DNA of 64,000 nt, taken from NCBI GenBank assembly GCA_026196225.1, contig JAPHRD010000027.1, positions 1 to 64,000 of the forward strand, read 5' to 3'. A program made the position numbers and the translations under genes. The notes beneath the pieces are model-generated. The model was not told the DNA's origin. It saw only the letters and a program-made list of their open reading frames with translations, and searched no databases. Below are positions 15,839 to 40,823 of the stretch, piece by piece. The stretch comes from Motiliproteus sp. (GTDB taxonomy: Bacteria; Pseudomonadota; Gammaproteobacteria; Pseudomonadales; Balneatricaceae). Within the stretch, counting starts at the first letter, position 1. Each line of letters begins with the position of its first letter.

Positions 15839-15848
15839 GATAAAGCTC

Positions 15849-17716: not shown

Positions 17717-17728
17717 CTCCTCGAACGC

Positions 17729-18838: not shown

Positions 18839-18951
18839 TATTTCTTTCCTCCGAACCGCCGGTAGCTCAGGGACCGGCAAATTCTGGGTTGATATTGTTT
18901 CAACAATTCCAAAACACCGCTGGAATCAAGACCACAATCACAATGTGTTTT

Positions 18952-19738: not shown

Positions 19739-20397
19739 TGGGCTGCTCCGACCTGCAGTAGAGATTTCACCCCGGTGATCAACCCTTGCGAGCCTTCGTT
19801 AAGATCGTAAAATGTGCGCAATTTACCCGCTTGATCAATCAAGTAGACATAGCTGGTGTGATTGAAGGTATAACCCGCCGCAGAGCCGATATCACGGCGC
19901 AGATAGAACACGCCGTATTGATCGGCAACTTTCTCAACCTGCTCGTCCGTGCCAGTCAAACCGATAAAGCTGCTGTCAAAAAAGTCCATGTAGTGTTTCA
20001 ACTGCTCTGAACTGTCACGGGACGGATCAAAGCTGACAAACAGCACCTGCACCTCAGACGCCGAATCCCCCAATCCCTTGTAGACACTTCCCAGCTGTCC
20101 CAGGGTGATCGGACAGATATCGGGGCAACTGGTGTAGCCAAAGGTCAGCACCACCACCTTTCCCCGCAGTTCCTGCAGACTCAAGGTTCGTCCAAGAGAA
20201 CTCTGCAGAGCGAAGTCACCGCCAAAAGTTTGGTCGTAGGGCAACGGTTCTTGCTGCCCCCAGGCCGACTGCCCGACTAACAAGTAGCAATAGAGTAGCC
20301 CCAGAATAGGCCACAGCAATCGATTATTGTTTCTGTTTCTGTTTCTGTTTCTGTTTCTGTTTCTGTTTCTGTTTCTGTTTCTGGAAGTCACGATCAA
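19735..20397 (-). CDS. SCO1/SenC/PrrC family protein
   Basis: FGYTSCPDICPITLGQL (CxxxC) and downstream His (FNHTSYVYLID). Confidence 0.9.
   Translation of the reverse strand: MIVTSRNRNRNRNRNRNRNRNRNNNRLLWPILGLLYCYLLVGQSAWGQQEPLPYDQTFGGDFALQSSLGRTLSLQELRGKVVVLTFGYTSCPDICPITLGQLGSVYKGLGDSASEVQVLFVSFDPSRDSSEQLKHYMDFFDSSFIGLTGTDEQVEKVADQYGVFYLRRDIGSAAGYTFNHTSYVYLIDQAGKLRTFYDLNEGSQGLITGVKSLLQVGAAQ
20329..20382 (-). repeat. Hexanucleotide tandem repeat (GTTTCT)9 inside the SCO gene, encoding (Arg-Asn)n
   Basis: Nine uninterrupted 6-nt units; protein MIVTSRNRNRNRN... Confidence 0.95.
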
Positions 20398-22948: not shown

Positions 22949-23776
22949 CTACTGCATCGCTGCCAGACCCTGCACCAGCAATCCCAACTCTTTGACCGTC
23001 ATCCGCTCGGCAAAATTAGCCGGCATGATAGCGGGGAATCCTTCGGCTATCACCGCCGCCGGATCGATAATGCTTTGACGTATTTCTTCTTCGCCCAGTC
23101 GGCTTCCCACATCACGCAGATCGGGCCCCACCGGAGATTCAGTATCATAGACGCTATGGCAAGCGGAGCATCCGTATTTGGCGATCGCCTCTTCAACTGT
23201 TGCCGCAGCAGCCACTGCAGGAGTGGCCGCCACGGTTCCAGTCGGCTCAGAATCTTCCACCGCTGCTTCGGTGGGCAGGGCAACGGTTACTTCGTTGCCG
23301 TCTTTCGATTGCAGGAAGGCGATAATGGCGTCGATCTGCACTGCCGACAGTTCGATTGGTTTCTTGTCGACGGCGGGCATCGGTGACTCCGTATCGTTGC
23401 TGCCTTTCTTACCAAAGCCCGCCACCACATAGATACTGGGATCTGTCATGGATTCGCGCAGATAACCTTCGATATCGCTGGCCTTGCCCTGATAGCGACT
23501 GTCAGCCAGGCGCTCTTTAGCGGCCTCACCGACGTTCATTTCAAGAAGGTCAGGCGCTCTACCCAGATTGTTATGGCATAGGGTGCAGGTTCCCTTGCCG
23601 TTGAAGGCGCTTTCACCCAAGGCGATAAAGGAATCCATGGTCAAGGCACCGAGATCCACCTTTTCCTCTTTGGGCGGTTCCCCCTCTACCTGCGGCAACA
23701 GATTGGCTGTTACCGTGAACACCAATGTCAGTGCCAGACTGAATCCAAGAACCTTGGGTAAAGTACCCATAGCCAA
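22949..23776 (-). CDS. Di-heme cytochrome c
   Basis: CTLCH and CSACH motifs; N-terminal signal/anchor. Confidence 0.88.
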   Translation of the reverse strand: MAMGTLPKVLGFSLALTLVFTVTANLLPQVEGEPPKEEKVDLGALTMDSFIALGESAFNGKGTCTLCHNNLGRAPDLLEMNVGEAAKERLADSRYQGKASDIEGYLRESMTDPSIYVVAGFGKKGSNDTESPMPAVDKKPIELSAVQIDAIIAFLQSKDGNEVTVALPTEAAVEDSEPTGTVAATPAVAAAATVEEAIAKYGCSACHSVYDTESPVGPDLRDVGSRLGEEEIRQSIIDPAAVIAEGFPAIMPANFAERMTVKELGLLVQGLAAMQ

Positions 23777-23883: not shown

Positions 23884-25740
23884 CTATTGACTATCCGGCG
23901 GTATCTGCTTAGTACTGCTCAGGGATGCGATCCAGAACACGAACAAAACGCAGAGCAGGAACATCACCGTGACAATCGTCATCATATTGCCCGCATAACC
24001 GATCGCAGGAATAAAGTTATCCGGTGAACTGTCTTTCATCACTGTATACACGTGCCAGCTACCGCGCACAGAGGAGCGTACGTAACCCATCAACGCCATC
24101 AGCCAGGTAAAGGCCACCGGTAGTGCGAAGAGTGCGTACTGGGAGCGGTTGCTGACCTTACCCCACTCCGAGGGCAGCTTTTTGGCACCCTTGTACATCA
24201 TGCCGTCGATCACTACCCCGGCTACGATCACCACCAGAGTAGAGACTACCTGCATTACACTGGATCCCACTTTGTAGACAGTATTAGTGAAGTAGCCGTA
24301 GTAAACGCCAGCAAAGATCACATTCACCACCGCTATCACATAGATCGCTACCATCAAGGCATTACCCGCTGGCGCCCAACTCACAGTCGCCACCTTATCG
24401 GAGCGACGGTAGAGCTGGAACGACAGGAAGGTGACAATCAACATCAGGTTCACTGCGATATTCTTCGCCGGCATGATCCCCAATGGACCTAACAGGTGGT
24501 GGTGGCTTCCACCCAGCGCCGCAACCTCTTTAGCGCTGAGGATCAGAGTGTGAGGCGTCACCCAGACCAAGAAGCCACCAGTGAGCACGATGGCGATGTA
24601 TTTCACCAACCATTTATAACGGTAGGAGCCTTCGGTGCGGGACATGCCCGACCAGAGGTAGTAGTTACTAGCCAGCAAAATGGTGCCGATCAGTACCGCC
24701 TGAACGATAAACAACCAGGCCAGGATGCCGCCCATGGCCGTGATGCCCATCTGCTGGGAGTAGGCATACACCTCCGCCATCAGCCAGTAGCCAGCAAAGG
24801 GCAGCGGCAGGAAGGAAAGCACGGCGATAAAGTTGGAGGTATAGCCCATCCAATCATAGTGGGCTTTCTCGGTATTACTACGACCACTGAGGAATTTGTA
24901 GGCGGCGTAGGCACCAACAATGGCGCCACCGAAAGCGATGTTGGCGATAAATCGATGAAGATTAACTGGATTCCATAGCGGTCCGCGGATGATCTCCCAG
25001 ATATCACCGGTGACCGCGCCGTTGGCGTCGACACCAGATGGCGCCATCATAAAGGTGGCCCAGGCGTTGGCGATCACCAGCAGCGTGGTACCCACCACGT
25101 TCAACAGCAATCCCAGTGACAGGTGTACGTACTTGGCGTTGCCGTAGCGCAGCGCATACCAGCTGTAGTAGTACATGTAGAGGATGGCACTTTCCAGGAA
25201 AAAGAGCAGCGCATAGACCAACACCTGAGAGCCAAACACCTCCAGCATATAACCCATAAAATCGGGATAGAGCAGGAACAGCGCAAACGCCAGCGTACCG
25301 CCGAACAGCGCAGTGATGGAGTAGGCGGTCATACTCACCTTCATAAATTCGTGAGCCATGTCGTCGTATCGGGCATCACCGGTTTTTACCCCGACCCATT
25401 CGATCACCACTACAAACAACGGCACCGCCAATACGAAGGCGGCGAAGAACAGATGCATCTGCGCCAGAATCCAGACCACCGCACGGCTACTACTGTTGCC
25501 CACCCTTGGATAGTCGGCAGCAGCCAGCTCCGGTGCCCCCTTCAGCACCTCGGCCGACCCCTGCGCTACCACTTCCGCAGCCTGCAGCGAATCCACGGGG
25601 CTGATACCTAACAACTGCCCCAGCCCCATTACCACCATGATGCTAGCCAGCCATAAACACCATTTTGTCCGGCCTTGCTTGGGTACGGATGCCGCTGCTG
25701 CTGGAGACACTGTTAGTAAGGTTTTTAACCACATAGCCAA
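23884..25740 (-). CDS. Cytochrome bd-like oxidase subunit I (CydA superfamily), no CydB partner in window
   Basis: Many TMs; CydA-like elements: WILAQMHLFFAAFVLAVPLF, FFLESAILYMYYYSWYALRYG, VIANAWATFMMAPSGV, GPLWNPVNLHRFIAN. The quinol signature GRQPW is absent. Confidence 0.82.
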   Translation of the reverse strand: MAMWLKTLLTVSPAAAASVPKQGRTKWCLWLASIMVVMGLGQLLGISPVDSLQAAEVVAQGSAEVLKGAPELAAADYPRVGNSSSRAVVWILAQMHLFFAAFVLAVPLFVVVIEWVGVKTGDARYDDMAHEFMKVSMTAYSITALFGGTLAFALFLLYPDFMGYMLEVFGSQVLVYALLFFLESAILYMYYYSWYALRYGNAKYVHLSLGLLLNVVGTTLLVIANAWATFMMAPSGVDANGAVTGDIWEIIRGPLWNPVNLHRFIANIAFGGAIVGAYAAYKFLSGRSNTEKAHYDWMGYTSNFIAVLSFLPLPFAGYWLMAEVYAYSQQMGITAMGGILAWLFIVQAVLIGTILLASNYYLWSGMSRTEGSYRYKWLVKYIAIVLTGGFLVWVTPHTLILSAKEVAALGGSHHHLLGPLGIMPAKNIAVNLMLIVTFLSFQLYRRSDKVATVSWAPAGNALMVAIYVIAVVNVIFAGVYYGYFTNTVYKVGSSVMQVVSTLVVIVAGVVIDGMMYKGAKKLPSEWGKVSNRSQYALFALPVAFTWLMALMGYVRSSVRGSWHVYTVMKDSSPDNFIPAIGYAGNMMTIVTVMFLLCVLFVFWIASLSSTKQIPPDSQ

Positions 25741-25775: not shown

Positions 25776-25910
25776 TTACTGCGCTGGCGTCAGGTTGAGA
25801 TTGAGAGGCAGATCCTGGGAGGACATCACCATATGATCGAGCCCGTAAAAGAACAGCGTAACCACCACAAAGGAGATCACCCATACCAATACCGTATTCC
25901 CTAAATTCAT
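25776..25910 (-). CDS. 44-aa single-TM protein
   Basis: MNLGNTVLVWVISFVVVTLFFYGLDHMVMSSQDLPLNLNLTPAQ*, with GAGAGAAACG upstream; immediately upstream of the bd-like gene. Below the ORF-track cutoff. Confidence 0.72.
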   Translation of the reverse strand: MNLGNTVLVWVISFVVVTLFFYGLDHMVMSSQDLPLNLNLTPAQ

Positions 25911-25955: not shown

Positions 25956-26144
25956 TCAGTGGCTGCTCGCCACACCGTGGTCGTAGATCACCAACCACCA
26001 AGCGAAAAACAACGAGGCCACAAAAACACCACGAAGCAACCAGGGTCCCCAAGTTGCCTCTCCGTAGGCCGACTCCGAGCCGGAAGATGCCACTTCGCTG
26101 TCGTTGCCATTGTGCTGAGTATCTTTCTGGTCCTGATCACCCAT
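25956..26144 (-). CDS. 62-aa single-TM protein, first gene of the bd-like operon
   Basis: MGDQDQKDTQHNGNDSEVASSGSESAYGEATWGPWLLRGVFVASLFFAWWLVIYDHGVASSH. Confidence 0.7.
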   Translation of the reverse strand: MGDQDQKDTQHNGNDSEVASSGSESAYGEATWGPWLLRGVFVASLFFAWWLVIYDHGVASSH

Positions 26145-26198: not shown

Positions 26199-26214
26199 GG
26201 CAAAATACGTACCA
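26199..26214 (-). promoter_or_regulatory. Putative sigma54 promoter of the bd-like operon
   Basis: Minus strand TGGTACGTATTTTGCC; GG-N10-GC spacing; about 55 bp upstream of the 62-aa ORF. Confidence 0.68.
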
Positions 26215-26502: not shown

Positions 26503-26518
26503 GGGCATGGATATTGCT
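26503..26518 (+). promoter_or_regulatory. Putative sigma54 promoter of the plus-strand HEAT/UspA/radical SAM operon
   Basis: GGGCATGGATATTGCT; GG-N10-GC spacing; about 85 bp upstream of the HEAT gene. Confidence 0.66.
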
Positions 26519-26603: not shown

Positions 26604-29099
26604 ATGACTGGCAGAAATGACGTGGTCGACGCCTTAATCAAATTACTGGAAAACGGCGATGAAGCAGACCGCTGCTACGCAGCACAAACGCTGGGAAAAC
26701 TGGCTGATAAAGATGCCATTCAGGCCCTGATTGAGCGTCTTCAGGACGAGGATATCGATGTTTGTATTGATGCCATCTACGCCCTAGGAGCCATCGGCGA
26801 TAGCCGTGCGACATCAGCGTTAGTCGAATCCCTTTTTAAAGATCCAGAGGGAGAGGTCAAAGTCGCTGCTACCGAAGCCCTGGGCCAGATTGGCGACCAG
26901 GAAGGAGCAGCTGTGCTGATCCAAATCGCTCAGCAGCGCCCCGATGGTCTGGAGATGGACGATGATGACAATTGGGATGACTACTGGGACATCCAGCTGA
27001 AAGCGGTCCAGGCTCTAAGTCAGATCGACACCACTAATACCGCCACAGCATTATGCTCGATTCTCGACAATGATGAGCTGCAGGATATAGAAAGCGAAGT
27101 GCTCACTGCTCTAAGTCAGGGAGACAGCCAGTGTTTAGAAGCATTGATCAGCCGATCCATCGAGGCAACTCCCCGCAGCCGTCGCCGCGCCATCAAGGCA
27201 CTGGGCCGAAACAGCAGTGATTCCGCCAAACAGTCTGTGCTCAATGCCCTGAAGGATAATGACGCCGACATCCGTAGTGAAGCGATCAGCGCCTTGGTGC
27301 GGATGCAAGCCACCGACCAACTCAACACCATTTTTAACTGCCTAAAAGATCCGGTAGCGGACGTACGGGCCGAAGCTCTTAGGGGGTTGGTACAACTGGC
27401 CCGAGTTCACGGCGCCAATAATTTTGGTCCAGAGCTGCTGATTCCACTGCTGGATACGGAAGACTCTCTAGTGAAGGGTACCATTCTCGAAGCACTGCGT
27501 GACAAGATCGAAACAACGAGTGCTGATTTGGATGAAGCACTGCTTCCCACCCTGCTGGCCAGCTTGAAGTCAGATAACTACGACGAGGCCGTAGCCGCCT
27601 GCGCCCTGCTATCCCATATCCATAGTCGCGATGTCCGTACCGAACTGGTACAGCTGATGTTGGATGAAGATTATGACGGTCGTCTGCGCCAGCAGGCGGT
27701 GCGGTCTCTGGGCCAACAACAGTGTCGTGAGCTGGAAGCCATTATGGCACTGCTGCAAGTGGTTAAGGACAAAAACCCTGCGCTACGAGTGGCAGCTATT
27801 GAGAGTCTCTATGGTCTACAACAGCTCCCTGCGCCAGAGATGGATGAAGAACAGATCCAACTCGACGAGCCTTTAAAACTGTTGTTATCGCTGATGCATA
27901 ACGGTGATCCACTGGAAGAGTTGGAGCAAGCGTTACGAGCCAAGGAGATTGCCGAAGCTGAGGCAAAAATAGAAGCGGAACAGATCGCTGAGCCTGCTGC
28001 CAACGATAACCAGCAACTGATCGATGCTGTTCAGCTGGATGGCGCTGCAGATACCGGCATGGCTGCCGCGCTGAAGGCGATCCACGATGAAAACGACAAT
28101 CAAGCACCCGACACTGACACTTCGTCCGAGCTAACCGTACCCAGCGATTACAGCGATCTAGAAACTGAAAGCGAATTCAGTGCCGGTTCGACCCTGGACG
28201 CTATCACCATGGACAACTTCGAGGTGATGACTGAAAGCAAGAACGATGCGCCCGACGACGAGCGCCTGCTCAATATGGTAGATGAAATGCCCGATGAGAT
28301 GCAGGGATTCGGAGATGTGGTGCGCGACCATCTGGAAACTGGCGACCGCGTGTTTGCCACCAAAAAAAGAAAGCCCGTGGCCGAGGATGTGCGCCTGTTG
28401 GTGATCCGCAGCCTTGCCGACAGCGAAGACCCGGAAGTGATCGAGTCGCTGATTCTGGCACTGTCTGACAGCGATATGGATGTGTGCCGCGAAGCGGCCC
28501 TGGCGCTAGGGCTGATCGCCGAGCGCAACCACCAAGCGGAAGGGATCAGCAACGCCTTCGGCGCCCTGGTCACGCAACTGCAGTTTAACAACCAGGATCT
28601 GCGCCTGGCCTGCCTGCGGGCGTTGGGTTCGTTGCAGCACAAAGAGGGCATCGTGCCGGTTCTGGACAGCCTCCAAGACCCCATCAGCGGTGTTCGTATT
28701 GAAGCGATCAATGCCCTACTGAGCCTTGCCAAGTCTGACTATTCCGATGACCCCAACTCCCATCATATGGTACTGGAGGAGTTCAGTGATCGCGAAGTAA
28801 TAGCCGCTATTCGTCCGCTACTGGAAGACTCTGAGGAAGGGGTTCGCAAAGCTGCGGTGGAAGCACTGGCAGAGCTGCAGGACAGCGATTCTTTGGATCA
28901 AATAATTGATGCCGGCTTATGCAATCACGGCGCCCTTGCCACACCGGTAGCGCGCGCCTTGAAAGTGATGGATATCGGAGAGATTACCAGCAAGTTGCTG
29001 TTACGGCTGGCATCCCTACCGGAAAGCAGTCAGCGTCGATTTGTCATCAAAATGCTAGAAACCCTGTTCCGCGCGCAAAAAACCACTGCCGCGGTTTAA
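26604..29099 (+). CDS. HEAT-repeat (PBS lyase-type) protein
   Basis: 831 aa of repeated ~30-aa units (VVDALIKLLENGDEADRCYAAQTLGKLADKDAIQALIERLQDEDIDVCIDAIYALGAIGD...). Confidence 0.88.
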   Translation: MTGRNDVVDALIKLLENGDEADRCYAAQTLGKLADKDAIQALIERLQDEDIDVCIDAIYALGAIGDSRATSALVESLFKDPEGEVKVAATEALGQIGDQEGAAVLIQIAQQRPDGLEMDDDDNWDDYWDIQLKAVQALSQIDTTNTATALCSILDNDELQDIESEVLTALSQGDSQCLEALISRSIEATPRSRRRAIKALGRNSSDSAKQSVLNALKDNDADIRSEAISALVRMQATDQLNTIFNCLKDPVADVRAEALRGLVQLARVHGANNFGPELLIPLLDTEDSLVKGTILEALRDKIETTSADLDEALLPTLLASLKSDNYDEAVAACALLSHIHSRDVRTELVQLMLDEDYDGRLRQQAVRSLGQQQCRELEAIMALLQVVKDKNPALRVAAIESLYGLQQLPAPEMDEEQIQLDEPLKLLLSLMHNGDPLEELEQALRAKEIAEAEAKIEAEQIAEPAANDNQQLIDAVQLDGAADTGMAAALKAIHDENDNQAPDTDTSSELTVPSDYSDLETESEFSAGSTLDAITMDNFEVMTESKNDAPDDERLLNMVDEMPDEMQGFGDVVRDHLETGDRVFATKKRKPVAEDVRLLVIRSLADSEDPEVIESLILALSDSDMDVCREAALALGLIAERNHQAEGISNAFGALVTQLQFNNQDLRLACLRALGSLQHKEGIVPVLDSLQDPISGVRIEAINALLSLAKSDYSDDPNSHHMVLEEFSDREVIAAIRPLLEDSEEGVRKAAVEALAELQDSDSLDQIIDAGLCNHGALATPVARALKVMDIGEITSKLLLRLASLPESSQRRFVIKMLETLFRAQKTTAAV

Positions 29100-29138
29100 T
29101 CGAGTGTCCGGGAAGGCCCGGAAAACTGGAGATCAAAC

Positions 29139-29867
29139 ATGAAAAAGTCAGTTATCGCAGTCACTGCTTTAATGGCATCGTCACTGTGTTTTACCGCTCA
29201 GGCAGCCAAATACAAAGAGATGACGGTCAGTGACGGGGGTACCGTCACCGGAAAAGTACTCTTTACCGGTAAAGATCCAAAACCGAAAACCTACGCCATC
29301 ACCAAGGACAACTCTGTATGCGGTGACGGTAATCGCGAAATTGATTTCGTTAAGGTCAACAACGGTGGTTTGACAAACGCCGTGGTCTACCTGGACAAGG
29401 TCAAAAAGGGCAAGTCCTTTCCGAAGATGGACGGCAAGATGGACCAGAAAGGTTGCGAATTTATGCCGTTCCTGAGCGTCATGCATAACGGTGGCAGCAT
29501 CGAAGCGATCAACCAGGACCCTGTGCTGCACAACATCCACACCTACGAACAGATCGGCAAGGCTAAAAAAACCGCCTTCAACGTCAGCCAGCCTGAACCC
29601 GGCACCATCTCCAAGTCGGTGAAGTTCAAGCGAGGCGTGGGTATGAAAGTGGAGTGCGACGCCCACGACTTTATGCACGGTTTTGTCTTTGTTGCCAAGA
29701 ACCCCTACTACGCTGTGGTAGACGATGAAGGTAACTTCAAGATCGACGGTATTCCTCCCGGTAAGTACAAGATCAACGCATGGCACGGCACCCTGGGCAT
29801 TAAAAAAGGCAAAGTGGAAGTAGCCGCCAACGGTGAAGTGACTGTCGAGTTTACCTATAAGAAGTAG
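29139..29867 (+). CDS. Periplasmic cupredoxin-like protein with carboxypeptidase-regulatory-like domain
   Basis: Signal peptide; type-1 Cu-like ligands HNIH ... CDAHDFM (C-x2-H-x2-M); C-terminal DDEGNFKIDGIPPGKYKINAWH. Confidence 0.8.
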   Translation: MKKSVIAVTALMASSLCFTAQAAKYKEMTVSDGGTVTGKVLFTGKDPKPKTYAITKDNSVCGDGNREIDFVKVNNGGLTNAVVYLDKVKKGKSFPKMDGKMDQKGCEFMPFLSVMHNGGSIEAINQDPVLHNIHTYEQIGKAKKTAFNVSQPEPGTISKSVKFKRGVGMKVECDAHDFMHGFVFVAKNPYYAVVDDEGNFKIDGIPPGKYKINAWHGTLGIKKGKVEVAANGEVTVEFTYKK

Positions 29868-29884
29868 CCGGTATTACGGCTATT

Positions 29885-29921
29885 ACGGAAGGGCCTAAGG
29901 CCTTTCCGTATCCTATTTTTT
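29885..29921 (+). terminator. Rho-independent terminator-like hairpin within the plus operon
   Basis: ACGGAAGGGCC-TAA-GGCCTTTCCGT stem (one G-T wobble) followed by TATCCTATTTTTT. Confidence 0.7.
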
Positions 29922-29934
29922 GGAGAATCTGGCC

Positions 29935-30054
29935 ATGATCAACACGACCATATGTCGACACCGTCTAGATAAGTTTGACCTGTTTGTATTGGCCGGCGGC
30001 CTGATGAATCTGCTAGTGATCGGCTACCTGGTGGGGTACTGGTTACTGCACTAA
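29935..30054 (+). CDS. 39-aa single-TM protein
   Basis: MINTTICRHRLDKFDLFVLAGGLMNLLVIGYLVGYWLLH*, preceded by TTGGAGAATCTGGCC. Below the ORF-track cutoff. Confidence 0.68.
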   Translation: MINTTICRHRLDKFDLFVLAGGLMNLLVIGYLVGYWLLH

Positions 30055-30102
30055 GCCGCCAATCGTTGTCTCCACTCCACTGCTGTTAACTGAGGTATTC
30101 AT

Positions 30103-32283
30103 ATGTCACTTCCGGAACAACTCCAACAACAAGAAGGCGATCAGACCCTGACGCCGCTGCCGGAATACCGCTCCATCCTGGTTGCAGCCGACGCCTCAGA
30201 TCACTCCAATCAAGGTGTAAAGATGGCTGCTTTGCTGGGCCAAACCTGGCAATCCAAAATTACCGGCGCCCACGTCTACGCAGCTAAACTCCACGATGTT
30301 CGCTTTCGCCAGATGGAAGGAGGCCTGCCGGAGCAGTACAAAGAGGAGACTGAGTTGGAACGGCAGCGGGATATCCATGATGAGCTGATCACCAAAGGCT
30401 TATCAGTGATCACCGATTCCTACCTGGACGGCGCCGAAGCTACCTGCACCGACGCCGGCCTGGAATATATACGCCGCTCGTTAGAGGGCAAAAACTACCG
30501 CGAGATGGTGCGCGAAACTAACTGTGGCAAATATGACCTGCTGGTGATGGGTTCGCTCGGACTCGGTGCCGTCGAAGGCAGCCGCATCGGTACGGTCTGC
30601 GAGCGGGTGGTCCGCCGCACCGATATCGACACTCTGATCATCAAAGAGGCTAAGCGAGATCTGACCGAAGGTCCTATCGTGGTGGCGGTGGACGGCTCTA
30701 GCCGCGGCTACGCCGGCCTGCTCAGCGCTTTCGCGATTCACAAGGCTCAGGGCACGCCGGTGCACGTGATCTCCGCCTACGATCCCTACTACCACTACGT
30801 GGCCTTCAACCGCATCGCCGAGGTGCTGTCGGAAGAGGCCGGCAAGGTGTTCCGCTTTAAGGAGCAGGAGGAGCTGCACGAAAGCATCATCGATGAGGGA
30901 CTGGCCAAGATCTACGACGGCCACCTGCACGTGGCCCGCAGTATCGCCGCCGATTACAGTGTCGAGATAACCACCGAGCTGCTGGACGGCAAGGCCCACG
31001 ATGCTATCGAAAAATACGTTCTCAAACACAACGCCAGTCTGTTGGTGATCGGAAAGCTGGGTATCCACGCCGACGACGAACTGGATATCGGCGGCAATGC
31101 CGAGAATCTGCTGCGCAATGTACCCTGCGGTATACTGATCAGTCAGAGCCACTTTACCCCGCAGATCGACATCGTCGCTGAAGCCACCACTACTTGGACC
31201 CACCAGGCCGAGGAGCGGATGAAAAAGATCCCCTCCTTTGCCCAGGGCATGGCCAAGATGGCAATCCTGCGCTACGCCCAGGAACGAGGTCATACAGTGA
31301 TCACCGAGGGTATTGTTCGTGAAGCCACCGACGCCCTCTGTCCGGTAAAACCGGGTGCCATGTCGGCGGAAGGTACAGGCAGCAAACAGTCTGCAGCGGT
31401 GGTTGATCATACCCAGCCCTATGATCCCGACTGGAGTGACGAAGCGGAACAACTCTTGGCAACCATCCGCGACCAGTCAATGCGTAACAACCTGCGTCGC
31501 CGTGCGGAAAAGAAAGCCCGTCAGGAGAAATCCAACACCGTGGAATGTAATCACCTGCAGGCCTTTATGAGTGTCCCCAAGCAGGCAGTTAGCGAAGCGG
31601 AAAAGACACTAGACACCACCAACGCCATCCCCCCCAGCTACCAATGGAGCGAAGAAGCCTTGGCCAAGTTAGAGCGGGTTCCTGAAGGCGGTATCCGCGA
31701 CATGGCCCGCGCCGCAGCCGAGAGCATCGCTGCCGAGTCGGCAATCCGCAATATCGATGGCGAATTTTTTGGCTCCATTCTCGATACCTTTAAAAGCGGT
31801 TCCGAGCAGGTTTCGGAGACTCTGGAGTGGAGCGATAGCGCCCGCCAGGGTATCGCTAAAGCGCCCGCCATGGTACGCGGCATGCTGATCCGCGAGATCG
31901 AAACCTTCGCCCGTGACCGGGGGGTTAGCCAAGTCGACGAAAGCACCGTGGCAGAAGTTAAACAGCGCTGGGGCGATAGCGGCACGTTCCACCAGGGTAC
32001 CGCTGATCCGCGCGCCTATTCACCAATAGAACATAGTGATGCAATAACGGATTCCTCCCCTGATCTCATCTGGAACAGCGAAGCGCTGGCTCGGCTGAAT
32101 CAGGTTCCTGAAGGCTTTATGCGTGAAAGCTGTCGCCGCCGTATCGAGTCATTCGCCCAGCAACAGGGGCTTGAACGAATCGATCTGGCCTTGGTGAAGC
32201 AACAACTGCAAAGCGCCTATGATGTCATGGAGAGCGTGGTCAAAAACGGCAAAGGTAAGTGCCCTTTGGGTCACGGCAGCTGA
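30103..32283 (+). CDS. Tandem UspA-domain protein fused to repeated PCP_red-like domains
   Basis: Two Usp domains (SILVAADASDHSNQGVKMAALLG; PIVVAVDGSSRGYAGLLSAFAIHK) then about five W-x-x-A-x2-x-L-x-x-I/V-P repeats (TTWTHQAEERMKKIPSFAQGMAKMAILRYAQERG; YQWSEEALAKLERVPEGGIRDMARAAAESIA; LEWSDSARQGIAKAPAMVRGMLIREIETFARDRG; LIWNSEALARLNQVPEGFMRESCRRRIESFAQQQG). Confidence 0.82.
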   Translation: MSLPEQLQQQEGDQTLTPLPEYRSILVAADASDHSNQGVKMAALLGQTWQSKITGAHVYAAKLHDVRFRQMEGGLPEQYKEETELERQRDIHDELITKGLSVITDSYLDGAEATCTDAGLEYIRRSLEGKNYREMVRETNCGKYDLLVMGSLGLGAVEGSRIGTVCERVVRRTDIDTLIIKEAKRDLTEGPIVVAVDGSSRGYAGLLSAFAIHKAQGTPVHVISAYDPYYHYVAFNRIAEVLSEEAGKVFRFKEQEELHESIIDEGLAKIYDGHLHVARSIAADYSVEITTELLDGKAHDAIEKYVLKHNASLLVIGKLGIHADDELDIGGNAENLLRNVPCGILISQSHFTPQIDIVAEATTTWTHQAEERMKKIPSFAQGMAKMAILRYAQERGHTVITEGIVREATDALCPVKPGAMSAEGTGSKQSAAVVDHTQPYDPDWSDEAEQLLATIRDQSMRNNLRRRAEKKARQEKSNTVECNHLQAFMSVPKQAVSEAEKTLDTTNAIPPSYQWSEEALAKLERVPEGGIRDMARAAAESIAAESAIRNIDGEFFGSILDTFKSGSEQVSETLEWSDSARQGIAKAPAMVRGMLIREIETFARDRGVSQVDESTVAEVKQRWGDSGTFHQGTADPRAYSPIEHSDAITDSSPDLIWNSEALARLNQVPEGFMRESCRRRIESFAQQQGLERIDLALVKQQLQSAYDVMESVVKNGKGKCPLGHGS

Positions 32284-32312
32284 TCTATCACTAGCAAACG
32301 CGGTAATTGCCC

Positions 32313-33608
32313 ATGAATGATCTCTATCTGCTGGCCATCAACCTAACCAAGCGATGTAACCTCGCCTGCGCCCATTGCTATCTGGATGCCGACACCCTAA
32401 AGAACGGCGCCAAAGAGGAACTCAGTGCCAAAGAGGTGTGTCAGGTACTGGACCAGGTGGCAGACCGTGATCAGCAGACCATGGTAGTCCTGACAGGCGG
32501 CGAGCCGTTGTTGCGCCCCGATCTTGAAGAGATTGTTCACCACGGCGCCCAACGAGGTCTGGCGATGGTCACAGGCACCAATGGCACCCTGCTCACCGAC
32601 CGTCGAGTAAAATCTTTGAAAGAAGCGGGATTACTGGGGGCGGGCATTAGTGTTGATTCCTTAGAGCCTGAATTCCACGACCAGTTCCGGGGTGTCAGCG
32701 GCTGCTGGTCACGGACCATGGCCGGGATTAAGAACTGCCGCAACAACGATCTGTCATTCCAGATCCACTTTTCCATCAACGACAATAACGCCCATCAACT
32801 ACCAGAAGTGATCGAATTTTCCCGCCGCCAAGGGGCTCGGGTGTTAAACGTGTTCTTCCTTATTTGCACCGGTCGCGGCGAATCCCAATCCGACATTTCG
32901 CCGTACCAGTACGAGCGGGTGTTGGAGCAATTGGTGCAGGCCCAGGCTGAATACCCCGATCTCATTATCCGCCCCCGCTGCGCCCCCCATTACAAACGTA
33001 TCGCCTATCAACAAGCCCCCGACGCCCAGATTAACCGCATTAGCGGCAATGAAGGTGATGGCTGTATTGCTGCCACCCACTACTGCCGCATATCCCCCAG
33101 CGGAGGCGTCACCGCCTGTCCCTTTATCGAGGAGGAAGTCGGCAATATCCGCGACCAGTCGCTGATTAAGATCTGGGATAGCGCCCCAGCCTTCGAAGCG
33201 CTGCGCCAACCGGATCTGAAAGGCGATTGCGGCGCCTGCGAATACCAGAAACTGTGCGGCGGTTGCCGCGCCCGCCCCTATGCATTAGGCGGCTCATTAA
33301 TGGATTCTGACCCCTGGTGCGCTTACCGCCCTCAAGGTGGTGAGGTGATACAACCACTACAGGTACTGGACAGTAATCTGCGCTGGTCAGAAGACGCCGA
33401 GCGGCGGCTTAACCTTATCCCCGGTTTTATTCGCAAGATGGTGCGTAAACGGACCGAAGCCTACGTACAGGACCTCGGAGAAAACTTGATCACCTGCGAC
33501 CACCTCAATCAACTGGCCGCCAAGCGCTTTGGCAAGGGCAAAATGCCTTCGCGACCTCAGATCTTTCAGCCGCAATCCGGCGAAAACGCAGGAGGTGATC
33601 ATGGCTGA
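32313..33608 (+). CDS. Radical SAM/SPASM protein (NirJ/AhbD-like) with C-terminal PCP_red-like domain
   Basis: CNLACAHCYLDA radical SAM motif, SPASM cysteines (CPFIEEEVGNI...CGACEYQKLCGGCRARPYA), C-terminus NLRWSEDAERRLNLIPGFIRKMVRKRTEAYVQDLG. ATG at 32313 preferred. Confidence 0.87.
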   Translation: MNDLYLLAINLTKRCNLACAHCYLDADTLKNGAKEELSAKEVCQVLDQVADRDQQTMVVLTGGEPLLRPDLEEIVHHGAQRGLAMVTGTNGTLLTDRRVKSLKEAGLLGAGISVDSLEPEFHDQFRGVSGCWSRTMAGIKNCRNNDLSFQIHFSINDNNAHQLPEVIEFSRRQGARVLNVFFLICTGRGESQSDISPYQYERVLEQLVQAQAEYPDLIIRPRCAPHYKRIAYQQAPDAQINRISGNEGDGCIAATHYCRISPSGGVTACPFIEEEVGNIRDQSLIKIWDSAPAFEALRQPDLKGDCGACEYQKLCGGCRARPYALGGSLMDSDPWCAYRPQGGEVIQPLQVLDSNLRWSEDAERRLNLIPGFIRKMVRKRTEAYVQDLGENLITCDHLNQLAAKRFGKGKMPSRPQIFQPQSGENAGGDHG

Positions 33609-35049
33609 ACCGCAGGTATTGATTATCGGCGGCGGTATCTCCGGCCTTAGCGTTGGCTGGTGGTTAAGCCGTGCCGGGATTCCCTGCCAGATCTGGGAGT
33701 CAGACGGCCGCAGCGGTGGCAAACTTCAAACCGAGCAGGTACAGGGCTATCTGACCGAGCAAGCCGCTTCTATTCTGATGAATTTCCGCCAGGAGGTGGA
33801 CCAGTTTGTGGACGAGGCAGGCCTGCAATCGATGAAGGTATGCCGATCCGACAGCGCCGAGCAGAATCGCTATCTGCTTCAGAACGATAGCCTGCAAAAG
33901 CTCCCCACATCCGCCTCCGGCATGCTGCGCTCACCACTTTGGTCAATGAAAGGAAAACTACGATTGGCCACGGAGATCTTACGCTCGTCGCGATCCGATG
34001 AAAACGAGACGGTCAGTGACTTTATTCGTCGTCGCTTTGGCCCGGAGCTGCTAGAAAAAGCGATGGACCCGTTTGTCGCCGGTACCCTGGCCTCCGACCC
34101 CGATAAGGCCAATGCCTATTCGGTACTGCCCCGCCTCACCACCCTGGAACGTCGCTTCGGCAGTATCAGCGCCGGTGTGATTGCCAAAAAACTGTTCAAA
34201 GGCCAGCGCGGCCCGTTGCAGCAAGCGTTTTCCTTCAGCGGCGGCATGTCGACCCTCACCGCCAAGCTGTCAAAGTCCCCGGGAGTGGATATCCGCTGCC
34301 ACCATCGGGTTAAGTCAGTAAAGCGTGTTAACGACGGGTGGCAAGTCTGGGCCGAAACCCCTCAGGGTGATCGTTTGCTACAGGTTCCGCAACTGGTGAT
34401 GGCCACCCCAGCAGCCCAGGCAGCCAACCTGCTCAGCAGTGAAAATAATGAGCTGGGGCATCTTCTGCGTCAGATCCGCTATGCGCCCCTAAATCTAGTT
34501 CACCTTGGACTGGATCGGTCACAGATTCCTCACCCTCTGGACGGTACCGGCTTCCTCACGCCCCGCGAGTCGGGGCTGCATATCAACGGCAACTTGTGGC
34601 TGAGTAGACTGTTTCCAAACCGAGCGCCTGAAGGTAAGGTTTTACTAACCTCCTACTTGGGCGGCGCGCGTCATCCAGAGCATTGCCAATGGGACGATCA
34701 CTACAGCATGGAACGGGTGATCGACGATCTCTCCAAGGTGTTTAAAACCCATCTGGCGCCGGAGATGGTGCGCGTGGTTCGCCACACCCAAGCTCTGCCC
34801 CTCTACCATGGCCACTACTACGCCATTTGTCGACAGCTGCAGCAGCATAGCCAGACACTAGGCAGCCTGCATCTGGCAGCCAACTATATCGGAGGAGTTT
34901 CTATTCGAGACAGAATTCTGAAAGGCCATCAGATCAGTAATGCAATTCAGCAACAACTGTCCCCACAATCACAATCGAAGTCGCCGAATATCATTACCCC
35001 TGATCCGGTAATTAAAACCCCGCAGCAACTTGGAATGAAAGGCTGCTAG
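33601..35049 (+). CDS. Protoporphyrinogen oxidase (HemG/HemY-type)-like FAD-dependent oxidoreductase
   Basis: VLIIGGGISGLSVGWWLSRAGIPCQIWESDGRSGGKLQT; HFTA-like C-terminal region; ...ANYIGGVSIRDRILKGHQISNAI. Start refined to 33601. Confidence 0.88.
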   Translation: MAEPQVLIIGGGISGLSVGWWLSRAGIPCQIWESDGRSGGKLQTEQVQGYLTEQAASILMNFRQEVDQFVDEAGLQSMKVCRSDSAEQNRYLLQNDSLQKLPTSASGMLRSPLWSMKGKLRLATEILRSSRSDENETVSDFIRRRFGPELLEKAMDPFVAGTLASDPDKANAYSVLPRLTTLERRFGSISAGVIAKKLFKGQRGPLQQAFSFSGGMSTLTAKLSKSPGVDIRCHHRVKSVKRVNDGWQVWAETPQGDRLLQVPQLVMATPAAQAANLLSSENNELGHLLRQIRYAPLNLVHLGLDRSQIPHPLDGTGFLTPRESGLHINGNLWLSRLFPNRAPEGKVLLTSYLGGARHPEHCQWDDHYSMERVIDDLSKVFKTHLAPEMVRVVRHTQALPLYHGHYYAICRQLQQHSQTLGSLHLAANYIGGVSIRDRILKGHQISNAIQQQLSPQSQSKSPNIITPDPVIKTPQQLGMKGC

Positions 35050-35051
35050 CG

Positions 35052-35384
35052 ATGACTGATCCACAACCACTCCAGACAGATGGCAACAAAGGCTTTAACC
35101 CGTTACCCTTGGTGGTAGTGGTGATCGCGCTGTTTCTGCTAATCTCATTGTGGACGAACAGTTATACTGAAACCAATTCCATTCAACGCTATTGCGGTGT
35201 CAGCGATGAAACCATAGGCTATTTGGGGAAGGTGCTCACTAAAAAAGAACCTGCCGGTGAGGAAGCCCGACGGCCCTACCTGATCGCCGCTAAATTGATC
35301 TTCCTGATTCCGCAAAAATCAGGTGAAAGCATCGATAATTATGTTGCCCGAGTTAAAGCAACCATCGACAGTCAGTGTCGATGA
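35052..35384 (+). CDS. Small membrane-anchored protein of unknown function
   Basis: 110 aa, one TM and C-terminal soluble domain; tightly packed in operon. Confidence 0.65.
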   Translation: MTDPQPLQTDGNKGFNPLPLVVVVIALFLLISLWTNSYTETNSIQRYCGVSDETIGYLGKVLTKKEPAGEEARRPYLIAAKLIFLIPQKSGESIDNYVARVKATIDSQCR

Positions 35385-35400: not shown

Positions 35401-38001
35401 GTGAAGATCTCAGTACCAATGACAATCGCTAAGCCAAACAAGCAGAAGCCTCGGTGGAGTCAGAAGCTCCAGCGTGCGATGGTGATCTTTCTGCCGATGT
35501 TCGTGCTGGTTAACAGTGTCCTGGTGGTCCACTACTGGATTCACACCACCAGCGCGCATGACCGGTTGGAGGAGAGCCAGAAACTCGGCGTTGAGCTGTC
35601 CCGTAAAGTAGTAGCTGATGAGATATCTAACGTTATGTTGGAGGTTAACTATCTGGCCGACTACTTGCAGCAAATTCAGATCAGTGAACAACTGTCCGTC
35701 GATGCCACCGCTCAGATCAGTCAATTCCTGGTGACCTTTGCTCGCCATCGTCCCTGGTACGATCATCTTCGTTATCTAAACCTGGAAGGTAATGAAGTGG
35801 TTCGCATCAACAACCGCGTCAACCCAATTCTGGTCTCCAAACGCAACCTGCAGAACAAGGCCAACCGCTATTACTTCCCTGGACTCAGTATTCTGAAACC
35901 GGGTCAAGTCTACATATCTCCGCTGGACCTGAACGTCGAAGGGGGAGCGGTGGAGATGCCGTTTAAACCCACCATCCGGGTCGGCGTACCACTCTATGAC
36001 GATCGAGGTGAGAAGGTAGGCTATATCCTGCTCAACTTCCTAGGCGATCAGCTGATTAGTGATTTCAAGCTGGCCTCCTCCCATATCTCTGAGCAAATGA
36101 TGTTGATCAACGCCAACGGCTATTGGCTGATTAGCCCAGACGAAAACCAGAATTGGGGATTTATCCTCATGCATCAACAGAGCTTTAACGGCAGCTTCAA
36201 GAACGAGTGGGACACAATTAAACGCATACCCTCCGGTCAATTTGAAACCGAACGCGGACTCTTTACCTTTACCACCGTACACCCCTATAACCGAGGTCTG
36301 GACGAGGCGGGATATGAACTCAACTCTGAAGCCAAAAATTACTTCTGGAAGGTGGTTTCCTTCGCGCCCCAGTTTCTACTCAACGCGCCCCGTTACGAAT
36401 TTCTGCGCAACAACGGTTTAAGCTACTCCATTACTCTGCTGGTCGCACTACTCAGTTCGGTGATGATCAGTCGGGTTCGTCAGCGTCATGAAGCGGTGTT
36501 GATCCAGAACGCCTATGAGAGCAGTTTCCGTCGTGTTCTGGAGAATATTCAGATGGCGGCAGTGACGCTCAACCGTTACGGCCGCATCACCTTTTGTAAC
36601 GACTATTTTGTCAAGCTGATTGGTTTTAGTCGCACCGAACTGCTTAATGAGGAGTGGAAAACCCTATGGCCCGACACCTCCAGATCTCAGCGGGACTATG
36701 ATCGGTTTCTGGAAGATTTGGCCAATCACCAGTTGCCGGAAACCGGTGAGGAGGAAATCTTCACCAAGGACGGACGACAGCTGCTGCTGTCTTGGAACAA
36801 CACTTACAGCCTCGACACCCATGACAAGGTCGTAAGCGTGACCCTACTGGGCCGGGATATCACTCTGCAAAGAGATATTGAAGAGCAACTAGTTAAGCTT
36901 AGTCAGGCGGTGGAGCAAAGCCCAAACACGGTAATGATCACCAACGCCCGCGGTGATATTGAGTACGTTAATCCGAAGTTCTCGAAGCTAACTGGTTATC
37001 AACCGGAAGAGGTGATCGGTTGCAAACCCAGCATTCTCAAGTCGGGTCATACCAGTCCTGATGAGTACACGCGAATGTGGTCCGATATTTCGCAGGGTAA
37101 GACTTGGCACGGAATTCTTAAAAACGTAAAAAAGAACGGTGACTTTTATTGGGAAAAAACCACTATTTCTCCAATTCTGGATACCCAGAATCATATCCGT
37201 CACTTTCTGTCAGTGAAGGAGGATATCACCGAGAAGGTTAAGTTGGAGCGAGACATTGCCCTGCAAACAAAAGAGACTCGTAAAAACCGGGAACTGGCGG
37301 CAGTAGGGCAAATGGCCAACATGGTTGCCCATGACTTACGCAACCCTCTAAGCTCAATCAAAATGGCGATACAAATTCTCAATAAGGAAAGCAGTAAATC
37401 TCCAAACTCAATAAACGCGCCGTCCAATATTACCGAGCTATTAATCATCGCCCAGGACCAGATCCGTTATATGGAGGGAATCCTCAGCGATCTCATGAGT
37501 TACTCTCGCCCCGGCAACCTCAATTCCGAGTGGCTGCGCCTCGATAAACTGATGGAAACCACTATTATCAGCCACCTCAAAGATATTCAGTGCAATAAGA
37601 TTGAGGTGGAGGAACACTACCAAAAAGGTTTACCTACCCTCTATGGTGATCCAGTAAAACTGCGTCAAGTGTTTAGTAACCTGCTAATCAATGCCATTCA
37701 CGCAGTCAAAGATAGTGAAGATCCGCGCATCACTATCAGCATTGACCTGCTAATGTCCGATGTCGGACCTAAAATTAAGGTAACAGTTATCGATGATGGT
37801 ATCGGCATCGATCCCTGTCAGACCAATATGGTGTTCGAGCCTTTCTACACAAATAAAGCGAAAGGCACCGGGCTTGGCCTTGCTATCGTCAAACAGCAGA
37901 TCGAACAACACAACGGTTCCATTAAGCTGACCCCTGTTGCACAGGGCGGTACCCGAGCGACCCTGATATTACCGATCAACCCAGAATTGCATAACGAGTA
38001 A
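35401..38001 (+). CDS. Sensor histidine kinase (periplasmic Cache-like sensor, two PAS, HisKA/HATPase)
   Basis: Two TMs flanking ~300-aa periplasmic domain; PAS motifs; MVAHDLRNPLSSIKMAIQIL; HATPase GTGLGLAIVKQQIEQHNGSI. Starts with GTG. Confidence 0.9.
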   Translation: MKISVPMTIAKPNKQKPRWSQKLQRAMVIFLPMFVLVNSVLVVHYWIHTTSAHDRLEESQKLGVELSRKVVADEISNVMLEVNYLADYLQQIQISEQLSVDATAQISQFLVTFARHRPWYDHLRYLNLEGNEVVRINNRVNPILVSKRNLQNKANRYYFPGLSILKPGQVYISPLDLNVEGGAVEMPFKPTIRVGVPLYDDRGEKVGYILLNFLGDQLISDFKLASSHISEQMMLINANGYWLISPDENQNWGFILMHQQSFNGSFKNEWDTIKRIPSGQFETERGLFTFTTVHPYNRGLDEAGYELNSEAKNYFWKVVSFAPQFLLNAPRYEFLRNNGLSYSITLLVALLSSVMISRVRQRHEAVLIQNAYESSFRRVLENIQMAAVTLNRYGRITFCNDYFVKLIGFSRTELLNEEWKTLWPDTSRSQRDYDRFLEDLANHQLPETGEEEIFTKDGRQLLLSWNNTYSLDTHDKVVSVTLLGRDITLQRDIEEQLVKLSQAVEQSPNTVMITNARGDIEYVNPKFSKLTGYQPEEVIGCKPSILKSGHTSPDEYTRMWSDISQGKTWHGILKNVKKNGDFYWEKTTISPILDTQNHIRHFLSVKEDITEKVKLERDIALQTKETRKNRELAAVGQMANMVAHDLRNPLSSIKMAIQILNKESSKSPNSINAPSNITELLIIAQDQIRYMEGILSDLMSYSRPGNLNSEWLRLDKLMETTIISHLKDIQCNKIEVEEHYQKGLPTLYGDPVKLRQVFSNLLINAIHAVKDSEDPRITISIDLLMSDVGPKIKVTVIDDGIGIDPCQTNMVFEPFYTNKAKGTGLGLAIVKQQIEQHNGSIKLTPVAQGGTRATLILPINPELHNE

Positions 38002-38006: not shown

Positions 38007-39395
38007 ATGACACGACTGTTAATAGTGGATGATGATGAAGCAATATGCAGGATGCTCGAGTTTCATTTCCTAGACGATGACTACGAAGTCAAGATCGCCC
38101 ATTCTGTCGATGAAGGGATGGCAGTAGCTACACAGTTCGAACCGGAACTGGTCATTCTTGATATCCGCATGAGTGGTAAAAGCGGGCTTGAAGGCCTATT
38201 GGAATTCAAGCAATTAATTCCCAACGCACGGGTCATCATGATCACAGCTTTTCACGATATGGAAAGCACCATCCAGGCGATGCAGGGCGGTGCAGATGAT
38301 TATATCCATAAACCTATCGATCTGCAGGAGTTGGACAACGCGGTCAACAAAGCGATGAAACACCTGAATTCTTCGGATCAAGAGATCAGCGTTGAAGAGG
38401 GCAGCATTATCACCAGCGCCATGGTGGGTAGCAGTGACTCCATGCGTGACGTGTTCAAAACCATCGGCCGAGTGGCTGGAAATACCGCCACCATACTCAT
38501 CAACGGTGAAAGCGGCACCGGCAAAGAGCTGGTGGCCAGTGCTATCCATAACGCCAGTGCCCGCCGTGATGGTCCTTTTGTGGCTATCAACTGCGCAGCC
38601 TTGGTTGAGACGCTACTGGAATCAGAAATGTTTGGTCACGAGCGAGGTGCTTTCAGCGGCGCGGTCGCCCAGCAAAAGGGGAAGTTTTCCCTGGCAGAGA
38701 ATGGCACCCTGTTTCTTGACGAGGTTGGTGAGCTTTCCTCCACTATCCAAGCCAAACTGCTGCGGGTACTCCAAGAGAAGGAATTCACACCAGTGGGGGG
38801 CAGGAAAGTACTGACTACAAACGCCCGTATTATCGCCGCCACGAATGTCAACCTGCGCCAAGCTGTGGAGGATGGAAAATTCCGAGAAGATCTCTTCTAC
38901 CGCCTAGAAGTGGTCAATATTAAACTCCCCCCCCTTCGAGATCGCATCAGCGATCTACAATTGTTGGTACCGGCATTATTACACCGGATCAACAAGGAAT
39001 TGAATGCCAAGGTCAACCGTCTAACGCCAGAGGTTATGTCAGCACTGCGCAACCATCCTTGGCCTGGTAATGTCCGCGAACTAGAGAATATGCTCACCAA
39101 AGCGGTAGCACTGTGTCCCAGTGATTGTCTGACCTTGGATCTTCTACCATCGTCAATGATCGTAAACCAACCCCATCTCGCCAATAAAACATCGACGGAT
39201 GCAATACGTGAGCACCACTATAACAAACCTGTCACCAGCTACAGTTTGAAGGAAATAGAGTTTGAGCATATCAAGCGAGTATTAGAGGAAACCGGGGGAC
39301 ATAAAGGCAAGGCTTGTGAAATCCTCGGAATCTCCCGACCTAAGCTTCAGCGAATGCTGGTGCAACTGAATCTGGACGATCTAACCTGTAATTAA
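38007..39395 (+). CDS. NtrC-family sigma54-dependent response regulator
   Basis: REC domain (LLIVDDDEAICRML...LVILDIRM), AAA+ (GESGTGKELVASAIH; GAFSGA loop, a variant of GAFTGA), Fis-type HTH (GHKGKACEILGISRPKLQRML). Confidence 0.95.
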   Translation: MTRLLIVDDDEAICRMLEFHFLDDDYEVKIAHSVDEGMAVATQFEPELVILDIRMSGKSGLEGLLEFKQLIPNARVIMITAFHDMESTIQAMQGGADDYIHKPIDLQELDNAVNKAMKHLNSSDQEISVEEGSIITSAMVGSSDSMRDVFKTIGRVAGNTATILINGESGTGKELVASAIHNASARRDGPFVAINCAALVETLLESEMFGHERGAFSGAVAQQKGKFSLAENGTLFLDEVGELSSTIQAKLLRVLQEKEFTPVGGRKVLTTNARIIAATNVNLRQAVEDGKFREDLFYRLEVVNIKLPPLRDRISDLQLLVPALLHRINKELNAKVNRLTPEVMSALRNHPWPGNVRELENMLTKAVALCPSDCLTLDLLPSSMIVNQPHLANKTSTDAIREHHYNKPVTSYSLKEIEFEHIKRVLEETGGHKGKACEILGISRPKLQRMLVQLNLDDLTCN

Positions 39396-40082: not shown

Positions 40083-40090
40083 ATTATGTC

Positions 40091-40121
40091 TTGAATCTGT
40101 AGTTACTACAGGTTTTATACT
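40091..40121 (+). promoter_or_regulatory. MerR-type operator/promoter with 19-bp spacer
   Basis: TTGAAT-CTGTAGTTACTACAGGTTT-TATACT with palindrome CTGTAGttaCTACAG in the spacer. Confidence 0.75.
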
Positions 40122-40153
40122 GTGAGAATAACACTGACTATGGAGCTTAGAGA

Positions 40154-40522: not shown

Positions 40523-40536
40523 CCGAGGTAAACCCA

Positions 40537-40818: not shown

Positions 40819-40823
40819 CATCT

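Follow-up and report, generated by a model that had tools for sequence, protein, structure and literature searches.

Two divergent operons

The window considered here is a stretch of 64,000 nucleotides from a Motiliproteus sp. (contig JAPHRD010000027.1, positions 1 to 64,000 of the forward strand) and forms part of contig C59 in a genome of 3.96 Mb. The element in question is a set of plus-strand genes at 26604-35384 that diverges from an operon for a CydA-like membrane subunit and c-type cytochromes. An earlier note, made from the sequence alone, had proposed that this set serves the maturation of a tetrapyrrole for the adjacent bd-like enzyme. The six open reading frames on which the proposal was built were all found where it had placed them, and comparison with other genomes tied the set closely to the CydA-like gene; the interpretation given in that note is upheld in part.

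The plus-strand operon begins with a HEAT-repeat protein of 831 residues (26604..29099; Pfam HEAT_2 1.4e-65, HEAT_PBS 4e-28) and an exported type-1-copper-like (cupredoxin-like) protein of 242 residues with a C-terminal CarbopepD_reg-like domain (29139..29867; fn3_3/CarboxypepD_reg). Further along is a protein of 726 residues (30103..32283) in which Pfam recognised two Usp domains (9e-30) and five PCP_red stretches (2.9e-50), in keeping with its earlier description as a UspA-PCP_red fusion. It is followed by a radical SAM/SPASM enzyme of 433 residues with a C-terminal PCP_red domain (32307..33608; Pfam Radical_SAM+SPASM+PCP_red) and by a flavoprotein of the protoporphyrinogen oxidase (PPOX) family of 482 residues (33601..35049; Pfam Amino_oxidase), for which 33601, a start that overlaps the stop of the radical SAM gene, is likelier than 33529. 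The small membrane-anchored protein of the earlier list, here called TM110 (35052..35384), is present and has no Pfam or NCBIfam match. To these can be added a mini-gene, s3 (29935..30054), which lies directly ahead of the Usp gene and encodes a 39-residue peptide with a single transmembrane segment. A strong terminator-like hairpin within the operon, with 12 pairs and a T-rich tail (29884..29910, plus strand), separates the cupredoxin gene from s3 and the Usp-PCP_red gene and could be an attenuator or a processing site.

On the minus strand the CydA-like subunit (23884..25740) matches Cyt_bd_oxida_I (5.3e-23) over its N-terminal part only. Between it and a promoter candidate sit two further mini-genes for single-transmembrane proteins, s1 (25956..26144, 62 residues) and s2 (25776..25910, 44 residues). 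Downstream lie cyt2 (22949..23776), a di-haem cytochrome c kept beside cydA in relatives, and cytEB (20479..22899), a multi-haem cytochrome c with three Cytochrome_CBB3 stretches joined to an ethylbenzene-dehydrogenase-type heme b domain (EB_dh 8.1e-15).

Family placement of the encoded proteins

The description of the radical SAM enzyme as NirJ/AhbD-like held up. It scored 308 bits against TIGR04055 (NirJ2) and 302 bits against TIGR04545 (AhbD), its best families, both under the 500-bit cut-off, and well below these, 123 bits, against PqqE; all 14 members of its family score best, as a group, to NirJ2/AhbD. The radical SAM motif is CNLACAHC, with C17-C21-C24 (CX3CX2C) invariant in the 14 members, and the equally invariant C308, C311, C317 and C338 fit the CX2CX5CX20-21C auxiliary-cluster motif described for NirJ (PMC12505453). 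Motifs of this kind also occur in other SPASM enzymes. The protein is thus like NirJ2/AhbD (and NirJ and AhbC) in its radical SAM and SPASM domains, its CX2CX5CX20C motif and its best family scores, but differs from NirJ2/AhbD in falling under the equivalog cut-offs, in belonging to a family fused to one to three PCP_red domains and in lying away from ahb or nir genes in a genome that holds a separate true NirJ. Radical SAM proteins of ~680-714 residues with three PCP_red domains in the tail were seen at four loci (L044, L048, L053, L056).

The identification of a protoporphyrinogen-oxidase-like flavoprotein is borne out by a TIGR00562 score of 237 bits against a cut-off of 97.85, which 13 of 13 family members pass, and by a family profile that recovers solved PPOX structures first (2ivd at 1.6e-111, full-length). 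Together with an invariant Arg-Tyr at 90-91 these features are common to the HemY/CgoX-type enzymes, from which the present member differs in sitting in a CydA-like cluster. It is the sole TIGR00562 match over the cut-off in the genome. Because HemJ is also present in the genome, the cluster enzyme is probably not the housekeeping one; going by gene content, HemJ would in principle make protoporphyrinogen IX oxidation by the cluster enzyme dispensable, and its presence rules out that the latter is the organism's sole protoporphyrinogen oxidase.

The PCP_red domains share with BchB types the pattern W..A...l..iP.f.R......E..A...G...I (Trp, Ala, Pro, Arg and Glu positions), and their nearest solved relatives are stand-alone domains and full-length BchB (2l09, 2kru and 3aek). 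The PCP_red domain of light-independent protochlorophyllide reductase subunit B is therefore present as such, whereas homology to whole BchB was not found (88 of 490 bits, with the match confined to the PCP_red stretches). Unlike in BchB, each genome has two to seven copies of the domain, joined to Usp and radical SAM and with no BchN/BchL-type partner, and comparison of the copies with BchB-type domains gave no conserved metal ligand. The Usp domains keep the nucleotide motif GxxGx9G(S/T). PCP_red in such a setting is not described in the literature searched. For all three proteins, profile and structure comparisons support membership of tetrapyrrole-type families.

A heme d1 locus is found elsewhere in the genome, on contig C5 (L158, G000:C5:1-14000), with nirDLGH-type genes for siroheme-decarboxylase-type subunits, nirJ and two cytochrome-d1-domain genes; its NirJ is a true NirJ (618 bits). 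The absence of heme d1 partners remarked on earlier therefore holds for the window and does not extend to the genome, and the idea of a genome without a heme d1 route is ruled out by this locus. The cluster itself does not combine nirDLGH, nirF and nirJ, the nir genes being apart on contig C5. Since both HemJ and a separate nir locus with a true NirJ exist, the radical SAM and PPOX-like enzymes of the cluster are, to judge from gene content, extra equipment in this genome.

Comparison of the CydA-like protein with canonical CydA, by three alignments and a profile, equates H19 with H96, E107 with E183 and E99 with Y176, while the equation of H186 with H262 is backed by profile searches and one of three MAFFT alignments. 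H96, E183 and H262 are invariant in 11 CydA-like members, and the H19, E107 and H186 equivalents are thus kept as in cytochrome bd and the wider bd superfamily, including that of Nitrospira; by contrast, the equivalent of E99 is an invariant Tyr. The position of E445, anchored on the aligned C-terminal RxxW, probably holds Ser (S556), a tentative assignment because MAFFT misplaces parts of the C-terminal half, where the alignment is weak and M393 is not reliably placed. The quinol loop is absent in alignments with canonical CydA, and for this reason the attached c-type cytochromes are probably the electron donor. Such a donor has been proposed for a Nitrospira bd-superfamily enzyme that lacks a quinol site (PMC12324825; see also PMC12342949), which would be alike in this respect.

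That the partner is a CydA-like gene without CydB beside it was confirmed: no CydB-like gene occurs in the conserved operon, though CydB was not searched for genome-wide. Besides the missing neighbour, the missing quinol loop and the changed glutamates, the enzyme differs from canonical CydAB in its fixed di-haem and EB_dh-type cytochromes and its linked tetrapyrrole-type genes. It is like CydAB in being accompanied by single-transmembrane small proteins, as CydAB is by CydX; s1 and s2 resemble bd oxidase small subunits by place and size, which is analogy and not homology. Two genomes, G284 and G383 (L049, L054 with L072, L074), carry two different CydA-like paralogues close together, each with its own cytochromes and beside idr-type genes (see below), possibly as a CydAA'-like pair.

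Distribution, gene order and regulation

The co-occurrence check suggested in the earlier note was run in two samples. In a class sample of 369 genomes PCP_red was searched first and the surroundings of non-phototrophic hits were then retrieved, the radical SAM-PCP_red fusion being scored via the PCP_red search in genomes without the CydA-like gene. An independent phylum sample of 389 genomes was scanned directly with CydA-like and radical SAM profiles. The CydA-like gene was carried by 16/369 class genomes, and the fusion was found in 14/16 of these, in about 12 of 13 families, as against 0/353 of the others (Fisher 1.5e-23 by genome and 1.7e-18 by family, the latter with a lower-bound family count, so that relatedness is only partly removed). 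In the phylum sample the two profiles mark exactly the same four of 389 genomes, including three further ones from other classes (G666, G441, G453). The genes are neighbours in G666 and G441; G453 has its radical SAM and Usp genes on a different contig, with a single stop interrupting the radical SAM frame. The G441 CydA-like gene (L139) and the G453 radical SAM gene (L142) each contain one in-frame TGA, which may reflect a frameshift, a fault of assembly or a pseudogene. Co-occurrence was thus near-perfect, in the independent sample as well, and the lack of it that would have counted against the earlier proposal was not seen. A link between the radical SAM set and the CydA-like gene is close to certain. 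A single radical SAM sequence, searched against genome contigs, retrieved two short gammaproteobacterial contigs and one unrelated hit.

In twelve class genomes CydA-like, cyt2 and cytEB genes lie near those for Usp-PCP_red, radical SAM and PPOX (G071, G177, G182, G211, G260, G274, G275, G284, G375, G383, G398, G406), and six of the twelve retain the entire order HEAT-cupredoxin-UspPCP-rSAM-PPOX-TM110-kinase-regulator (rSAM denoting radical SAM). The arrangement CydA-cyt2-cytEB divergent to HEAT through kinase-regulator is kept across different families of the class, with variants in other classes, and is therefore not due to chance. Identity to the window proteins in the six full-order genomes is 73-78% for the CydA-like subunit and 58-63% for the radical SAM enzyme. 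It falls to 27-35% for the HEAT protein, which leads the divergent operon in all six and likewise in G150 and G270.

The accessory proteins are conserved to varying degrees. The suggestion that the HEAT protein might be a bilin lyase has to be given up, since its scores are far below every curated cut-off (CpcE 66 against 330 bits, NblB 61 against 300, CpcF 50 against 220), which rules out a phycobilin lyase of the CpcE/CpcF/NblB kind. For the cupredoxin the earlier assignment stands in part: the type-1 copper ligand set H131, C173, H176 and M179 is invariant across 13 relatives, as are C61/C106, but no cupredoxin model matched. Eight TM110 family members occur at the same place, with C48 and C109 invariant. 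Relatives of each mini-protein were found by tblastn in some ten other loci, in the corresponding position: s1 in nine loci (E to 2.6e-15; motif WGPxLF...FFWWLxIYxxGV), s2 in ten loci (36-74% identical; motif FFYGLDHxxMxxQGLPLNLxLTPAQ) and s3, kept upstream of UspPCP, in G071, G150, G211, G260, G270, G274, G275, G375 and G406.

Downstream of TM110 lie a sensor histidine kinase (35401..38001, plus strand; HK_sensor_dom, PAS, HisKA), whose position is kept in relatives, and an NtrC-type sigma-54 activator with GAFSGA (38007..39395, plus strand; ntrC 433.7 bits), whose orthologues are 53-59% identical, several with GAFTGA. Between the two operons a -24/-12-like site at 26503..26518 (plus strand, 8/10 consensus positions) faces the HEAT-rSAM-PPOX operon and another at 26199..26214 (minus strand, 9/10) faces s1-s2-cydA. 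Outward sites in both directions were present in 7/7 HEAT/CydA-like intergenics, with a chance of both under shuffling of 0 to 0.07 each; the G150 intergenic, a further case, had no sigma-54-like sites. A substantial caveat is that a scan of the window for the sigma-54 pattern was at chance (74 matches against 72.5 expected), so that the case for the sites is made only by where they lie and by their recurrence in relatives. With this reservation they support the predicted co-regulation of the two operons, which had seemed apparent in the earlier note.

Overlooked in the earlier note was an idrABP1P2-type cluster at 13139-18880, on the minus strand beyond a SCO1/SenC copper chaperone (19735..20397, minus strand; 7.7e-41). 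It comprises IdrP2- and IdrP1-type di-haem peroxidase-like proteins (17729..18880 and 16466..17716), which are MauG/MbnH-like, an IdrB/AioB-type Rieske subunit (15849..16469; TIGR02694, 123 bits, above cut-off) and an IdrA/AioA-type molybdopterin subunit (13139..15838; TIGR02693, 404 bits, above cut-off, with P1/P2 synteny), and is accompanied by a Crp/Fnr-type regulator (12217-12993). An AioA-like gene with a Rieske gene and two di-haem peroxidase-like genes, in the order A-B-P1-P2, is used to recognise iodate reducers (PMC8692401). The same content and order mark the window's cluster as a candidate iodate reductase, and IdrA-type plasmid proteins are 47-74% identical. A sigma-54-like site precedes the operon ahead of P2 (18952..18967, minus strand, 9/10), as also in G275, G375 and G406. 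On Azonexus and Thiothrix plasmids a kinase/sigma-54 regulator pair likewise lies near idr-type genes, and no CydA-like relative was found among the plasmids of the collection searched. Published idr islands are poorly conserved around idr, and in Denitromonas mer genes were reported close to it (PMC8692401); in the window a MerR-like regulator and mercury-transport-like small genes lie at 39654-41482, downstream of the NtrC-type regulator.

The idr-type cluster is within ~40 kb of the CydA-like gene in six of the twelve syntenic class genomes, and of 15 class genomes with an IdrA-type protein (leaving out a G168 hit of 34% identity) 11 have the CydA-like gene (Fisher 1.5e-14), a link not found in the literature searched. 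The radical SAM set follows the CydA-like gene rather than idr, because a radical SAM of the cluster family occurs in 0/4 genomes with idrA and without CydA-like (a hit of 142 bits in G369 scores no higher than expected of a NirJ) and the set is present in three CydA-like carriers without detected idrA (G071, G177, G398). A role as accessory of idr alone is ruled out by the same four genomes. Stand-alone PCP_red proteins of 72-84 residues were seen in G268 and G369 (L045, L052), idrA carriers without CydA-like.

A putative tetrapyrrole module for the CydA-like enzyme

Gene content, family placement, co-occurrence, synteny and sigma-54-like sites were computed directly; from them we infer the substrate, the type of reaction and the recipient. 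The explanation towards which we lean, if only just, is a dedicated module for tetrapyrrole tailoring or insertion serving the CydA-like enzyme. It is favoured by the co-occurrence with CydA-like and not with idr, by three tetrapyrrole-linked families in one operon (NirJ2/AhbD-like radical SAM, PPOX and BchB-type PCP_red), by the additional status of the radical SAM and PPOX-like enzymes beside HemJ and NirJ, by the sigma-54-like sites of the divergent intergenics and by the altered heme site of the CydA-like protein, with Y176 at E99 and probably Ser at E445. A tetrapyrrole is a likely substrate on family placement, and the CydA-like enzyme as recipient is the most economical, if unproven, reading of the co-occurrence.

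The Usp-PCP_red, radical SAM-PCP_red and PPOX-like proteins would act in the cytoplasm as a module, modifying a tetrapyrrole and passing the product on for insertion into a CydA-like membrane enzyme fed by c-type cytochromes and not by quinol. The several PCP_red domains, carried by a Usp scaffold that binds nucleotides and by the radical SAM enzyme, may hold the macrocycle. A side chain would be attacked by the radical SAM enzyme, much as propionates are by AhbD and NirJ, and the oxidation state of the macrocycle or side chain would be shifted by the PPOX-like enzyme. HEAT, TM110 and s3 may aid assembly or docking, s1 and s2 may be small subunits of the CydA-like complex, and the cupredoxin and SCO proteins may serve periplasmic electron transfer or copper supply. 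The sensor kinase and NtrC-type activator are predicted to turn on both operons jointly with the iodate-reductase-type cluster from sigma-54 promoters.

Several observations weigh against such a module. The main caveat is that two CydA-like carriers are without it. G150, a 90%-complete draft, keeps CydA-like, HEAT, cupredoxin, s3 and TM110 in an operon from which Usp-PCP_red, radical SAM and PPOX are missing, and the cluster's radical SAM family was not found elsewhere in it; nor was it found in G250. HEAT, cupredoxin, s3 and TM110 may therefore be part of the CydA-like complex more than of the tetrapyrrole module. In G270, the congener of G150, PPOX remains within the operon and a different contig holds Usp-PCP_red and a radical SAM of 38% identity; G321 has PPOX and a PCP_red fragment, with no radical SAM found. 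The radical SAM enzyme is below the curated NirJ2 and AhbD cut-offs, and peptides are frequent substrates of SPASM radical SAM enzymes. A tetrapyrrole-binding role for PCP_red would be an extrapolation from BchB, as no axial heme ligand is conserved. CydA homologues can reportedly run on b hemes only (Murali et al. 2021), so that there is no a priori need for a special heme.

A second route to ordinary heme would dispense with a special heme altogether, an AhbD-like coproheme-to-heme step and an extra porphyrinogen oxidase supplying the heme-rich operon under low oxygen or oxidative stress. AhbD, which turns coproheme into heme b (PMC7242693), is indeed the second-best family, the PPOX members pass the cut-off for true PPOX and the adjoining operons encode many hemes. 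This is nevertheless unlikely, as it leaves unexplained why the set tracks CydA-like and is missing from genomes with idrA alone, HemJ is already in the genome and heme b synthesis is not known to involve PCP_red arrays. Somewhat less credible still is modification of a peptide or protein side chain (e.g. in s1-s3 or a CydA-like residue) by the radical SAM/SPASM enzyme, completed by the PPOX-like protein, with no tetrapyrrole involved. Many SPASM enzymes mature peptides, with PqqE, mycofactocin and SkfB enzymes among the relatives, and the two operons contain three conserved mini-proteins; but the gap between the NirJ2 and AhbD scores and that for PqqE is wide, the PPOX alignment runs full length to true PPOX and not to generic amine oxidases, and PCP_red is otherwise known from protochlorophyllide reductase.

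We consider it improbable that the module is an offshoot of the siroheme/heme d1 route, supplying the CydA-like enzyme with a d1-like isobacteriochlorin from didecarboxysiroheme made by nirDLGH. The nirDLGH-type, nirJ and cytochrome-d1-domain genes of the same genome and the best score to NirJ2 would suit it, yet G211 and G270 carry the set with no second NirJ-type radical SAM found at E<=1e-30 (nirDLGH was not searched there), and the cluster has no d1-type insertion proteins. Repair, detoxification or recycling of heme damaged by iodine oxyanions or peroxide from iodate reduction, a protective and not a biosynthetic role, draws on the linkage to the idr-type cluster, both genetic and in predicted regulation, and on peroxide as a by-product in published models (PMC8692401), but is very improbable given that the set is present without idrA and absent from idrA carriers without CydA-like.

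A special heme made for the bd-like enzyme, the central claim of the earlier note, remains conditional on a product that sequence tests cannot show. The dedicated module could go with a more specific and decidedly more tentative proposal, in which an undescribed modified heme, made by the radical SAM and PPOX-like enzymes with PCP_red carriers, serves as active-site cofactor in a bd-superfamily enzyme that receives electrons from c-type cytochromes and works with iodate respiration; we hold this to be possible but doubtful. The parts are variants of known families. A search of the literature, which was not exhaustive, turned up neither their combination nor the tie to CydA-like nor the joint regulation with idr. 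The pairing of CydA-like and heme genes, near exceptionless across bacteria, suggests a custom-made heme for this enzyme family. If true, a respiratory enzyme of the bd superfamily would have a new tetrapyrrole pathway of its own, and multi-copy PCP_red domains would gain a function outside chlorophyll synthesis. The linked genes also define a respiratory unit made up of the idr-type cluster, the CydA-like complex, the heme module and a shared sigma-54 switch.

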